Source: Desulfosoma sp.
Lineage (GTDB): Bacteria; Desulfobacterota; Syntrophobacteria; Syntrophobacterales; DSM-9756
DNA length: 64,000 nt
Direction: 5' to 3'
Assembly: GCA_037481875.1 (NCBI GenBank)
Contig: JBBFKY010000002.1
Coordinates: 229,264 to 293,263 of the forward strand
Positions 35,473 through 40,249 of this stretch are shown here, one piece after another. The notes beneath the pieces are model-generated. The model had not been told where the DNA came from, ran no database searches, and worked only from the letters and a program-made list of their open reading frames with translations. Both the position numbers and the translations under genes were made by a program. Within the stretch, counting starts at the first letter, position 1, and the number at the start of each line of letters is the position of its first letter.

Positions 35473-36294
35473 CTATTCCACACCGTTTCCTTTGTCCTGT
35501 CGTGCCATCAACATTCCTCGGGCCGTGGACAGAGCCTCTTCCACGGCATCGACAATTTCAGGATCGTCACTATTGAGCAGATCGCCGAGAAGTTCCGTGG
35601 CTCTCTCAGGCATGACGGTGCCGACGGCTTCTAGGGTAGCGAAAAAGAGATCTTCGTCGATTTCATCTGATTCCAAAATTTTTTGCAACACGGGAGCTGC
35701 TCCTGAGACACCCCAAGCTCCTGCAGCGCACACGGCTTGGTAAAGAATGTCAGGATCTTCGGATTGAAGGGATTCCAAAATTTCCTTATCAAAGCCTTCC
35801 AACCAGCGCATGGCAAACACGGCGGAAAGTTTCCAGTCCTTTTGAGGCGACTTATAGGCGCTGGCGACGGCTTCTCGATGCCATTCCAAGGGGGCTCTCA
35901 CCGAAGCTTCCAGCACCGAGCGTCGCACCTCGTCAGGTGTACGAGGATCCCGGTAAAGATCATGAAATTTCTCTTGAATTTCATCGAAAAGCTCTTCAGA
36001 GAGCGGGCTTTCTTCGGGATCCTCAAAACCTTCCATATCGACGTATTCCAAGGACGCTCCCAAAGCCACGGCGGCCGTGCCTCGAAGGGATGCATCTTCA
36101 TCGGGATCGGCCGCGATTTTTAGTAAGAGTCTCGCCAAAGCATCGTCCATGAGGGAGACATCCGAAAGAAGTTCGGCGGCCATTTCCCGATCCCGGATGG
36201 CTGCTTTTCTGTTTTGCAGCACGCCCACCAGTGTTTCCTTCGTTCCTTCGGGCCATTCCCAGGGCGCCAGTTCATAGAGGGCTTCCAAATCCAT
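35473..36294 (-). CDS. HEAT-repeat-like protein
   Basis: Two in-frame ATGs are possible: 36303 lies only one base after AGGAGA, while 36294 is about 10 bases from it, so 36294 is chosen. The 273-residue acidic protein is made of repeated helix pairs with HEAT-like signatures (DASLRGTAAVALGASLEY, PDEVRRSVLEASVRAP, DPDILYQAVCAAGAWG, DDPEIVDAVEEALSTA). Such scaffolds bind other proteins. Partner and function are unknown; it forms a probable operon with the 106-residue protein. Confidence 0.75.
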   Translation of the reverse strand: MDLEALYELAPWEWPEGTKETLVGVLQNRKAAIRDREMAAELLSDVSLMDDALARLLLKIAADPDEDASLRGTAAVALGASLEYVDMEGFEDPEESPLSEELFDEIQEKFHDLYRDPRTPDEVRRSVLEASVRAPLEWHREAVASAYKSPQKDWKLSAVFAMRWLEGFDKEILESLQSEDPDILYQAVCAAGAWGVSGAAPVLQKILESDEIDEDLFFATLEAVGTVMPERATELLGDLLNSDDPEIVDAVEEALSTARGMLMARQDKGNGVE

Positions 36295-36437
36295 GAGCGT
36301 CATTCTCCTGTCATGATAATGGGTGATAAGCTTTTAAATTTTGGTCGGCATACCTTTCAGCCTTTTTGCGACCCTTACCTACCACAACATCGGCTTACGG
36401 TGTCGAAAAATCTGAGCCTTGGCCTGTCATTTTTCTT

Positions 36438-36465
36438 TTAAGTTTTTCTTAAGCCCTGCCGACCT
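36438..36465 (+). promoter_or_regulatory. Candidate sigma-28 (flagellar) promoter of the chemoreceptor
   Basis: TTAAGTTT matches 7 of 8 bases of TAAAGTTT, and GCCGACCT keeps the GCCGA of GCCGATAA, with a 12-base spacer (consensus 11). It lies about 80 bases upstream of a methyl-accepting chemotaxis protein gene, a typical sigma-28 target. Confidence 0.5.
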
Positions 36466-36543
36466 TCAACATGACTCTTTGTGGAAGGCATCACGAAAAG
36501 GCTGGGAGTAACCTTGGTCAAAAGCTGGAAAGGAGTGGAAAGT

Positions 36544-39500
36544 ATGCGTTTCAATCTGAAAATGAAACTTATCGCCTTTGCGGTTAGCCTTGTCGCCGTG
36601 CCTCTTGTGGCCAACACCCTGGTCAACATGGCCCTGTCCGGCAAACAATCCGCGGACATCTCCCAGTACGTCACAACGGTTCTCCAAGAAGATGCAGCCC
36701 AATTGCTCACGGCCCTGCTCGAAGGAGATTACACGGTCGTCAGCGACATCGTATCCAGGGTGGAAGACGATGCAAAACGATTAGCGGCATCACCAATTCT
36801 GGCCAATTTTCTTGCCATCAGTCGCGGCACACAGGCCGAAGTGCGTGCCGCCGTGGAAGCCCAGGCTAAAGGGCAACTCGGCACAATCCAGGCCTTCTTT
36901 GATGCTCAACGCCAAATGGTTTCAAAGCAGCTTCAAAACGACATCAAGCTAGCTGAAACGCTCGTTCAGCGATACGGCAAACCGGATCTTTCTGACACAC
37001 CGTATCGCTGGAATGCCGTCAACCAGTTCACCAAAGAAACCAAAAACGTGGAACTTCCTCTTCTCCGTCTGGGATCCCAATTGATCTACCCTGTCAAAGA
37101 ATTCGATACTCGAGCTTATGTGGTGGATGAACTCACGGAGCTTACGGGAAGTACCTGCACCATTTTTCAAAAAATGAACGATGACGGTGATATGCTACGT
37201 GTGGCCACTTCCGTGAAAACCAAAGAAGGAAAACGCGCCGTCGGAACCTTTATTCCTGCCGTCAACCCGGACGGCACCCCAAATGCGGTCGTCACTACGG
37301 TCACCCTGGGAACACCTTTTACGGGTCGGGCTTTTGCGGTCGATGACTGGTACCAAACCATTTACAAACCGTTAAGGAACCCGTTTGACGAAGTTATCGG
37401 CATGCTTTACGTGGGTGTACCCGAAAAGAGTATTGGAACCATTCGCGACCAAGTGGCCGAAGCCAAATTGGGCACAACGGGTTTTGTCTTCATTGCTGAT
37501 GAGGAAGGGCGGATCGTACTTCATTCGGACCGTAGCCTTGAAGGTCAGGATGCCGCCGAAGCCATCGGTATTCCCTCCTGGCATGAACGCATCAAAGAAG
37601 TGGTTCAAAAGAAAGAAGTTTTCAGCAGTTTCAAATCCTCGGACGGTCGGGATGGCTTTGTTTCTCTTCTGCACTACCCCGAATGGAAATGGATTCTCGT
37701 CGGTGTGGGATTCTGGAACGAGTTTACCGCAGCTTCCGCGGAAAACGCTTTCAATCAATTCGCTTCTGAACTTAAAGCCCTGTGGCAGGTTGGTGTCGTG
37801 AAAACCGCCGATGGTACCCAGGCACTCTACCCTCAGGTGCGTTACCTGGATGTTTCCGGTATGGAACGTATCAAAATCGTCGATGGATCTTTCCGGCAGG
37901 ATTTTCAATCCAGAGCCGATACCGACTGGTTTCAACAAGCCCTCAAGGCCGAAACGATTCACAACACCGGAGTGGAAATCGCTCGAAACACCGGAAAACC
38001 TGAGCTTCGAGTGGCCGTGCCGGTCCGCTTTGAAGGGCGGCAGGAAGGGGTTGTTGTTGTCAATCTCGACTGGAGCGCTGTCTGGAACATTCTGAAAACC
38101 CGAAAACATGGGAAAACTGGCTATCCAGCCGTGATCGATTATCAAGGCTTTATCGTCTCGCATCCCAAATACTCTCTGGCTGACAGCGTTCGCCTCACCG
38201 ATGACAAATACGGGCAACTGGCCGCTCTTGTGAAAGCGGGTCTCGGAGGAGCCGCCGGGACCGGTCAGTACACCTTTGAAGGGGTCGCCAAATTCATGGC
38301 TTACAGGCCACTGGCTCTGGGGTCAAAGACTTATCTGGTAGTCACGACCATGGCTCAAGATGAACTGATGGAAATGGCCGGCCGAGTGGCGGAAAAGCTC
38401 GCCGACGGAAGGTCCCAGACCATGAAATGGGCCGTAGGCATTGCGGCCGTCATGCTTGTTCTCGGCGTCGGGGTCTCTGTTCTTTTCGGGCGACGTATCA
38501 CCAATCCTATCGTGCAAGCTGTTCAAGGCCTTAACGAAGGAGCGGACCAGGTGGCCGATGCTTCCGCCCAGGTAGCTGGATCCAGCCAGCAGTTGGCGGA
38601 AGGATCTTCCGAACAAGCGGCATCGTTGGAAGAAACGTCGTCAGCTCTGGAAGAAATGGCTTCCATGACGCGCCAGAACGCCGACAATGCAGCTCAAGCT
38701 AACACCCTAGTAAAGAGTTCAGCTTCGAGCCTTGAAGAGGCGCAGACGGCTATGGTCAATTTAGAAAAAGCCATGGCCGAAATCGAAACGGCCAGTGCAG
38801 ATACCCAAAAAATCATCAAGACCATTGATGAAATCGCCTTTCAGACCAATCTGTTGGCCTTGAACGCCGCCGTGGAAGCCGCTCGGGCCGGGGAAGCCGG
38901 AGCCGGTTTTGCCGTGGTCGCCGATGAAGTACGAAGCCTTGCCATGAGGGCCGCCGAGGCGGCACGCAGCACCTCGGGAATCATTGAAGAAACGGTACGC
39001 AAAGTGCAAACGGGTCATCAAGCGGCGAGTCTGGTTTCAGAATGTTTTTCCAAGGTGACCGAATCGGCGACCAAGATTGGCGAACTGGTCGCTGAAATCG
39101 CCGCCGCCAGCGGGGAACAGGCCGAAGGCATTGATCAAATCAATCGTGCCGTGGCGGAAATGGATAAAGTGGTGCAACGCAACGCGGCCAACGCGGAAGA
39201 ATCAGCCTCCGCCAGTGAAGAACTCAGTGCCCAGGCTGCCGTTGTGCGCGAATATGTCCAGCAGTTGGCACGAGTGGTGGGAATCATGAGCGATACGATG
39301 CGGGCTCAAAGTTCCCACAAAAGCGGCCGGGAACCAGAGGATTTTCTGAGGGAAAAGCCGATAAAGAAAACCTTCCTTTCCGAAAAAGGTAATGAAACAT
39401 CTAATACCCCATCCCATTCCAATCCCGTAGCTTTTCGAACCCGAATGTCCAAAAGAACCCAAGGCAATCAACACGGCGGCGTTGTGTCTTTGAACACACG

Positions 39501-39921
39501 CCGCGTTAAACCCCTTATGGAATGGTCTTCGGAATACTCGGTCGGTGATTTTGACCTCGACCAACAGCACCAGAAACTCTTTAAGCTGGTGAATCGGCTC
39601 AACGAGGCCATGCAGTTGGGGCAGGGACAATCCATGCTGGAAAAGGTTCTTGCGGAGCTCGTGGATTACACGGGAAAACACTTCGAAGCGGAAGAAAAAG
39701 CCATGGAACGGGCCGGGTATCCTGATCTGGATCAGCACCGAGAAATCCACCGAAAACTCGTTCAGAAAGTAACTCAGATGGTCGAGAGATTTCAAAACGG
39801 TGAAACACGGCTCACGCTGGAGCTATTGAATTTCCTCGAAAAGTGGCTCAAACAACATATTCTGGGTGCCGATAAAAAATACGCCCCCTATTTGCAGGGA
39901 AATGAAGAGGCGATATTCTGA
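36544..39921 (+). CDS. Methyl-accepting chemotaxis protein with C-terminal hemerythrin domain (DcrH-like)
   Basis: The ATG at 36544 follows AAAGGAG. The 1125-residue protein has an N-terminal membrane segment, a long periplasmic part with two Cache-like regions ([22 protein letters not shown]...[17 protein letters not shown]; then [16 protein letters not shown]), a second membrane segment near 627-650, a cytoplasmic signalling domain with [20 protein letters not shown] near 765, and from about 993 a bacteriohemerythrin domain. The diiron ligands are visible as H in [20 protein letters not shown] and KQHILGAD. This is the layout of DcrH of Desulfovibrio, an oxygen sensor for aerotaxis in an anaerobe. 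Ligand of the Cache part is unknown. Confidence 0.95.
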
Positions 39922-40249
39922 TGAGGAATAGGGTTACGAAAACGGCCCTGGCAGGTCGGCCATTGGAAACCATTGAACCATGATGAACGAGGATCAAAAA
40001 CCGTCCGTAGCGGTATCTTGGGGCGGAGATGTGGCTCCGCCCCTACAGGAACGTTGGTTCGGGGAAGGCCACATGGCTCTGCCCAGATGGTTGTTCTTTG
40101 AGGATCACACCTAAGAGGACCCTGAAGCCACCCATTTTCGAACAAGTCCAAGAAGCTACGACCATGATCGCAGCGGAAACGGCGCGTTCTGAAGACACAC
40201 ACTCCATGAACCCAAAGTCCTTTATGGTGCGTGCACCGGGTGGTTGACA
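39922..40249. other. Intergenic region with palindrome copies
   Basis: About 330 bases without a supported gene. It contains one perfect palindrome (40020-40043) and a degenerate copy at about 40054-40085. Confidence 0.5.
40020..40043. repeat. Dispersed palindrome copy
   Basis: GGGGCGGAG/CTCCGCCCC with a six-base loop, followed by TAC as in other copies. A degenerate second copy follows at about 40054-40085. Confidence 0.7.

Follow-up and report, generated by a model that had tools for sequence, protein, structure and literature searches.

Our analysis points to a chemoreceptor gene of Desulfosoma that would be transcribed by the flagellar sigma factor FliA (sigma-28) and whose product combines a periplasmic Cache sensor with a cytoplasmic hemerythrin domain. 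We consider it likely that this receptor serves oxygen avoidance and that its hemerythrin has come to stand in place of an older tether. The gene lies in a window of 64 kb, i.e., the whole stretch of DNA that we analyzed, within a genome of 3.4 Mb (G000; 99.56% complete). The domain order, the metal ligands, the conservation of the promoter element and the occurrence of genes for FliA, CheA and the flagellum can be read directly from the sequence. The features of the locus are as follows:

36438-36465, + strand: sigma-28 (FliA)-type element TTAAGTTT-N12-GCCGACCT, read directly and kept across genomes
36530-36535, + strand: ribosome binding site AAGGAG, 8 nt 5' of the ATG, read directly
36544-39921, + strand: coding sequence of 1125 aa with the order TM-Cache_3/Cache_2-dCache-TM-MCP-linker-hemerythrin, from translation, Pfam and NCBIfam
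36550-36639, + strand: transmembrane helix 1, residues ~3-32, by hydropathy
36829-37734, + strand: Cache_3-Cache_2 fusion domain, residues 96-397 (PF17201, 218.4 bits, above cut-off)
37894-38319, + strand: main stretch of dCache_1, residues 451-592 (PF02743, 90.8 bits, two stretches, above cut-off)
38419-38502, + strand: transmembrane helix 2, residues ~626-653, by hydropathy, with no detectable HAMP after it
38710-39171, + strand: MCP signaling domain, residues 723-876 (PF00015, 141.8 bits, cut-off 34.6)
39280-39513, + strand: flexible linker, residues ~913-990, of low pLDDT and poorly conserved
39514-39897, + strand: bacteriohemerythrin domain, residues 991-1118 (NF033749), which aligns with 2avk and 4xpx

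The reading frame extends from the ATG at 36544 to the stop codon at 39921. As judged by hydropathy, only two segments (residues 3-32 and 626-653) pass as membrane helices and nothing in between comes near that level, so that the two helices flank the sensor in the manner of a methyl-accepting chemotaxis protein (MCP). Residues 646-905 match the structure 3zx6, which is named methyl-accepting chemotaxis protein I. A HAMP domain was found neither among the 13 Pfam families matching the receptor at E<=1 nor, at E<=0.01, in the orthologues L003 and L006. The sequence-only reading had placed the gene correctly, and the MCP with two Cache-like regions and a C-terminal hemerythrin that it had described is borne out by Pfam and NCBIfam. 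Within the linker, residues 921-980 reach a pLDDT of only 25-29 in a full-length AlphaFold model that is poor overall. This model, built from five sequences, was discarded at a mean pLDDT of 43.7. As the linker comprises ~78 residues, a rigid coupling of the hemerythrin to the signaling domain is less obvious.

An AlphaFold model of the sensor (residues 31-628, 14 sequences) reached a mean pLDDT of 86.7 and, by our reading of its strands and helices, would contain four PAS-like modules. Comparison of the model with known structures by VIA-align gave Z-scores of 18.8-23.6 among the best 50 matches listed, which are mostly double-Cache structures and align over 216-269 residues within the model range ~9-587. 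For instance, the double-Cache structure 2p7j superposes with a Z-score of 23.1 over 250 residues (rmsd 3.9). Both the Pfam scores above cut-off and the fold place this region among the Cache sensors. The structure matches and the two stretches that Pfam assigns to dCache_1 lead us to read the modules as probably nested, an extra Cache_3-Cache_2 module being placed after the long first helix of a dCache domain.

At the C-terminus, the Pfam Hemerythrin family matches residues 1004-1117, and the curated NCBIfam bacteriohemerythrin model NF033749 scores 149.7 bits against a cut-off of 84. All seven diiron ligands, i.e., five histidines, one glutamate and one aspartate (H1009, H1046, E1050, H1065, H1069, H1105 and D1110), are present, are invariant across five aligned sequences including that of the window, and align with those in the crystal structures of DcrH-Hr (2avk) and Bhr (4xpx). 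Model score and ligand set together make the domain a bacteriohemerythrin with all expected ligands, as had been claimed on comparison with DcrH. We infer that the domain would carry iron, bind O2 and sense redox state.

DcrH of Desulfovibrio vulgaris consists of two membrane helices, a periplasmic region, a HAMP and a cytoplasmic C-terminal hemerythrin (PMC9388753), and negative aerotaxis has been proposed for it (PMC9388753, PMC13401364). Our receptor likewise is an MCP with two membrane helices, a periplasmic region and a cytoplasmic C-terminal hemerythrin, and the latter matches DcrH-Hr 2avk with an E-value of 8.7e-16 and all ligands aligned. It differs from DcrH in that no HAMP was detected and in that its hemerythrin scores better against the bacteriohemerythrin 4xpx than against 2avk. 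On this comparison, which joins the alignment of the hemerythrin domain with the published architecture, the receptor would work like DcrH; we do not file it as a DcrH orthologue, because the HAMP escaped detection. The proposed likeness to DcrH thus holds for the MCP-hemerythrin fusion and the intact diiron ligands but not for the HAMP.

The receptor belongs to an already known type, as MCPs with a C-terminal hemerythrin and no HAMP have been published; according to the accessible text of PMC4919030, they are the commonest architecture with known partners (33 sequences, with 14 more that include a HAMP). Our receptor follows these HAMP-less fusions in placing the hemerythrin C-terminal to the MCP domain but carries a Cache_3-Cache_2 plus dCache sensor, and the sole mention of Cache in that accessible text is Cache_1 in Spirochaetes sequences. 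Closer at hand, a sister family (G008, G010 and G012) has hemerythrin-MCPs of the 4HB/CZB and NIT types, which resemble the receptor in that their hemerythrins group with its own and in that the terminal Phe is kept; they differ in having other sensor domains, and three of the four are without the promoter element described below.

The genome holds the machinery that such a receptor would serve. FliA scores 249.2 bits against a cut-off of 189.6, and the genome contains two flagellin-family genes, fliD, a flg/mot gene run (named by our reading), one CheA and six MCPs including the receptor. Pfam detects two hemerythrin-family domains, of which one, that of the receptor, is a bacteriohemerythrin. 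A lack of motility genes had been named as an observation that would speak against flagellar control; we looked for such genes and found FliA, the flagellin-family genes, fliD and CheA. The description of the organism as a sulfate reducer agrees with the presence of dsrA.

Upstream of the receptor gene, TTAAGTTT at 36438-36445 and GCCGACCT at 36458-36465 are separated by N12, exactly as the sequence-only reading had reported, and the element starts 106 nt 5' of the ATG. We scanned the genome with the pattern TNAAG(T/G)TT-N10..13-GCCGA, in which N is not G, using the reversed pattern as control. Exact matches with spacers of 10-13 amounted to 14 sites as compared to three for the control, and nine of the 14 have N12 spacing. 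A list of N12 sites with one mismatch proved unusable as evidence by itself (74 sites vs 43 in the reversed control). Sites with N12 spacing precede fliD (TCAAGTTT-N12-GCCGATAA), the gene run leading to flgK (TCAAGGCT-N12-GCCGATAA) and cheW-mcp (TCAAGTCT-N12-GCCGATAC); together with three more MCP genes, four of the five other MCP genes have such a site upstream. For the MCP on C14 this site lies 442 nt from the gene start, and for the MCP on C12 no N12 site was found upstream. The flagellin gene fliC is preceded by TAAAGGGA-N12-GTCGATAC, which was picked by eye, the scan having listed nothing there. Exact N12 sites are also located before four genes that have no evident flagellar role, encoding a DHH-CBS protein (L083), a receiver-NMT1-like protein (L085), a CHASE4-PAS protein (L091) and a protein of no family (L096). 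The first three of these are possibly non-flagellar members of the regulon, or else chance matches. As a side observation, the MCPs L103 (G000 C2) and L104 (G000 C12) have an equal Pfam score of 164.2 bits and look similar by eye; an N12 sigma-28-like site is present upstream of L103 and absent upstream of L104.

A matrix was then built from seven sites of the genome with the site of the window left out; as these training sites were picked by motif and by their place before motility genes, the scores flatter the matrix. The site of the window obtained 11.9 bits, below six of the seven training sites, which yielded 10.0-21.4 bits when each was left out, the flagellin site being the weakest at 10.0 bits. 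On both strands of the 64 kb window, 11 N12 positions reach 11.9 bits, with the receptor site included and ranked last, and 12 of 2000 shuffles of the 200-nt upstream region reach the same score. Taken alone, the site is thus only suggestive. Simple scans revealed neither a sigma-70-like promoter in 36290-36560 (by consensus) nor a terminator near the gene. Two further observations concern the flanks of the gene. The motif TACCTACCACAA at 36376-36387, 50 nt 5' of the -35 element, has a similarly placed copy in the Desulfosoma orthologue L003 and might be a further regulatory site. In the intergenic region 3' of the gene, a perfect GC-rich hairpin (40020-40043) looks like a small dispersed repeat, with stretches of 31-41 bases that are 80-88% like the hairpin part at four other places in the genome.

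The stronger case for the promoter comes from its conservation. We searched 59 genomes, our own included, at a threshold of 1e-100 and scored at most 12 candidates per genome. A receptor matching from the first or second residue (the match in G001 begins at residue 2) with at least 50% identity was found in seven of the 59 genomes. All seven, our own among them, possess the N12 element, located -96 to -143 from the match start when the best site was sought within 200 nt. This site scores 11.9 bits in our genome (G000), 16.1 bits in G001 (reached by 1 of 2000 shuffles), 19.4 bits in G002, 16.8 bits in G004, 16.8 bits in G007, 16.9 bits in G006 and 19.3 bits in G005, whose orthologue lacks the hemerythrin; none of 2000 shuffles reached the score in any of the last five. 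G004 and G007 count as one, since their sites are identical and their receptors nearly so. The divergent upstream neighbor is a gene common to the window and L003, both Desulfosoma (276 and 288 aa), and a gene of 127 aa in three Desulfacinum loci. Thus, the neighbor differs while the N12 element stays, and the element therefore outlasts a change of neighbor. Outside this group, the N12 site is weaker in two hemerythrin-free Desulfacinum paralogues (13.0 bits) and poor in the G027 paralogue (10.5 bits). Four hemerythrin-MCPs from the sister family gave a weak site in one case (13.7 bits) and no site in the other three.

Recurrence in seven of seven genomes is well beyond chance and argues for a promoter element. 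This element is conserved and of the genome's own flagellar type, although its copy in the window is weak, and from these comparisons sigma-28 control of the receptor gene appears well supported. The earlier assignment of a sigma-28 promoter therefore stands as regards the presence of the element and its retention in all seven genomes, but its own -10 is degenerate and the case is one of conservation. The broader proposal, flagellar control of oxygen sensing, is only partly upheld: the promoter element is in place, but that of the hemerythrin-free orthologue is stronger, and three of the four hemerythrin-MCPs of the sister family lack it.

In Escherichia coli, the aerotaxis receptor Aer employs a PAS-FAD sensor. 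Its gene, aer, is sigma-28 dependent, with a -10 of GCCGACAT, N11 spacing and activation by CRP (PMC2859248). Like aer, our receptor gene would be an aerotaxis receptor gene read by sigma-28; the two differ in the N11 spacing and CRP activation of aer as against the N12 of our receptor gene. Given this precedent (PMC2859248), GCCGAC is a variant that works in E. coli aer, and there is nothing new in an oxygen receptor being controlled by sigma-28. As far as the accessible text of the literature searched extends, we found no account of a hemerythrin receptor being controlled by sigma-28, and the accessible part of PMC2700814 describes no sigma-28 sites.

The hemerythrin-free orthologue in G005 also sheds light on the history of the fusion. 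It is 53% identical over residues 1-910 and ends in EEVIPFEEDFSDF, its tail DFSDF being CheR-tether-like. A tree of residues 1-910 places it as the sister of the six hemerythrin-bearing receptors (93/94), with three hemerythrin-free paralogues outside; topologies that join it to either half of the clade, and that would agree with a loss, were not rejected (p-AU 0.10 and 0.07). A single later gain of hemerythrin is the simplest reading, which the tree favors but does not prove. As the tree favors this later gain, the promoter would track the receptor lineage and not oxygen sensing. Probably, the receptor already had its flagellar promoter when, in the common ancestor of Desulfosoma and Desulfacinum, the hemerythrin took the place of a CheR-tether-like C-terminus. 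Each of the six fusion genomes has one bacteriohemerythrin, the fused copy, and a single free bacteriohemerythrin is present in each of two other genomes of the family, G005 and G003. A hemerythrin tree was calculated from 27 of the 33 bacteriohemerythrin matches; L198 and L192, which the ligand pattern missed, one match without locus and three partial matches were left out. In this tree, the fused domains of all six receptors fall together with the hemerythrins of the sister-family MCPs (89/93, open fork). The free bacteriohemerythrin of G005 was considered as a source of the fusion and found unsupported, as the fused domains group elsewhere, with weak support.

Chemoreceptors may carry a CheR/CheB-binding pentapeptide of the NWETF type. 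A hydrophobic-x-x-aromatic end, which resembles it, occurs in 77 of the 102 related MCPs that lack hemerythrin and in none of the 11 that have it; these counts cover MCPs with a readable end among the loci collected and, because the proteins are related, gathered by similarity and sorted by our own motif patterns, are neither independent nor exact. Similarly, none of nine further hemerythrin-bearing frames, four of which carry the MCP signature sought, has a tether-like end. The terminal Phe is kept in ten of the 11 hemerythrin-MCPs (L172, L174, L177, L178, L180, L181, L184, L185, L187 and L148), which belong to the family of the receptor and its sister family, the pentapeptide pattern being gone.

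On the reading that we favor, FliA would transcribe the receptor gene alongside the late flagellar and chemotaxis genes. The receptor would take up two inputs, a small molecule through its periplasmic pair of double-Cache modules and O2 through its cytoplasmic hemerythrin, which would bind O2 and auto-oxidize. Oxidation of the diiron site would alter the signaling helices and with them the activity of CheA, and the cell would turn from oxygen by negative aerotaxis, as proposed for DcrH.

This reading has to be weighed against others. One alternative is that the promoter motif matches by chance and that a different promoter drives the gene. The ten other equally good sites on both strands of the 64 kb window speak for it, yet the same N12 spacing in seven of seven genomes, also next to a different neighbor, and the outcome of the simple sigma-70 consensus scan make this very improbable. 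The hemerythrin might also scavenge or store oxygen rather than sense it, anchored to the receptor array at the membrane, with the receptor answering its Cache ligand only. The lineage does exist without hemerythrin, and the long linker does not require signaling; moreover, the fused copy is the only bacteriohemerythrin found in the six fusion genomes, as opposed to the free copies in G005 and G003, so the fused domain may serve in place of the free protein. Against this, among the partner domains known for O2-binding hemerythrin the MCP is the commonest (PMC4919030), the redox state of the hemerythrin controls the output of the diguanylate cyclase Bhr-DGC (PMC9388753), and at receptor expression levels a scavenger would presumably be scarce. 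We hence regard a scavenger as unlikely.

We rate as similarly unlikely, and as most worth testing, that the redox state of the hemerythrin alters access to the methylation helices, and thereby adaptation, rather than direct kinase output. The domain occupies the position that the flexible CheR/CheB-binding tether has in related receptors, the tail counts and the DFSDF end of the hemerythrin-free orthologue agree with an exchange of one for the other, and a redox-dependent N-terminal loop of DcrH has been proposed to act on the neighboring methylation domain (PMC9388753). However, the loss of the tail may merely result from the addition of a domain at that end, and the terminal Phe persists in ten of the 11 hemerythrin-MCPs. 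Many functional receptors are, besides, without the pentapeptide. We give slightly less credence still to the full form of this idea, in which a hemerythrin grafted onto a sigma-28-controlled Cache receptor in place of the CheR/CheB tether acts as a redox gate on adaptation. If true, oxygen would set the methylation rate, and one receptor would join a Cache signal with an oxygen-dependent memory.

Taken together, a FliA-transcribed Cache and hemerythrin receptor for oxygen avoidance, as favored here, offers a clear genomic example of a probable oxygen or redox receptor within the flagellar regulon of an anaerobe. The route by which a hemerythrin signals to its MCP is stated to be unsettled (PMC9388753, PMC13401364), and the exchange of tether for hemerythrin provides a testable idea on it. 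Orthologues that carry the hemerythrin and one that lacks it, all preceded by a promoter element of the same kind, constitute a natural experimental pair.
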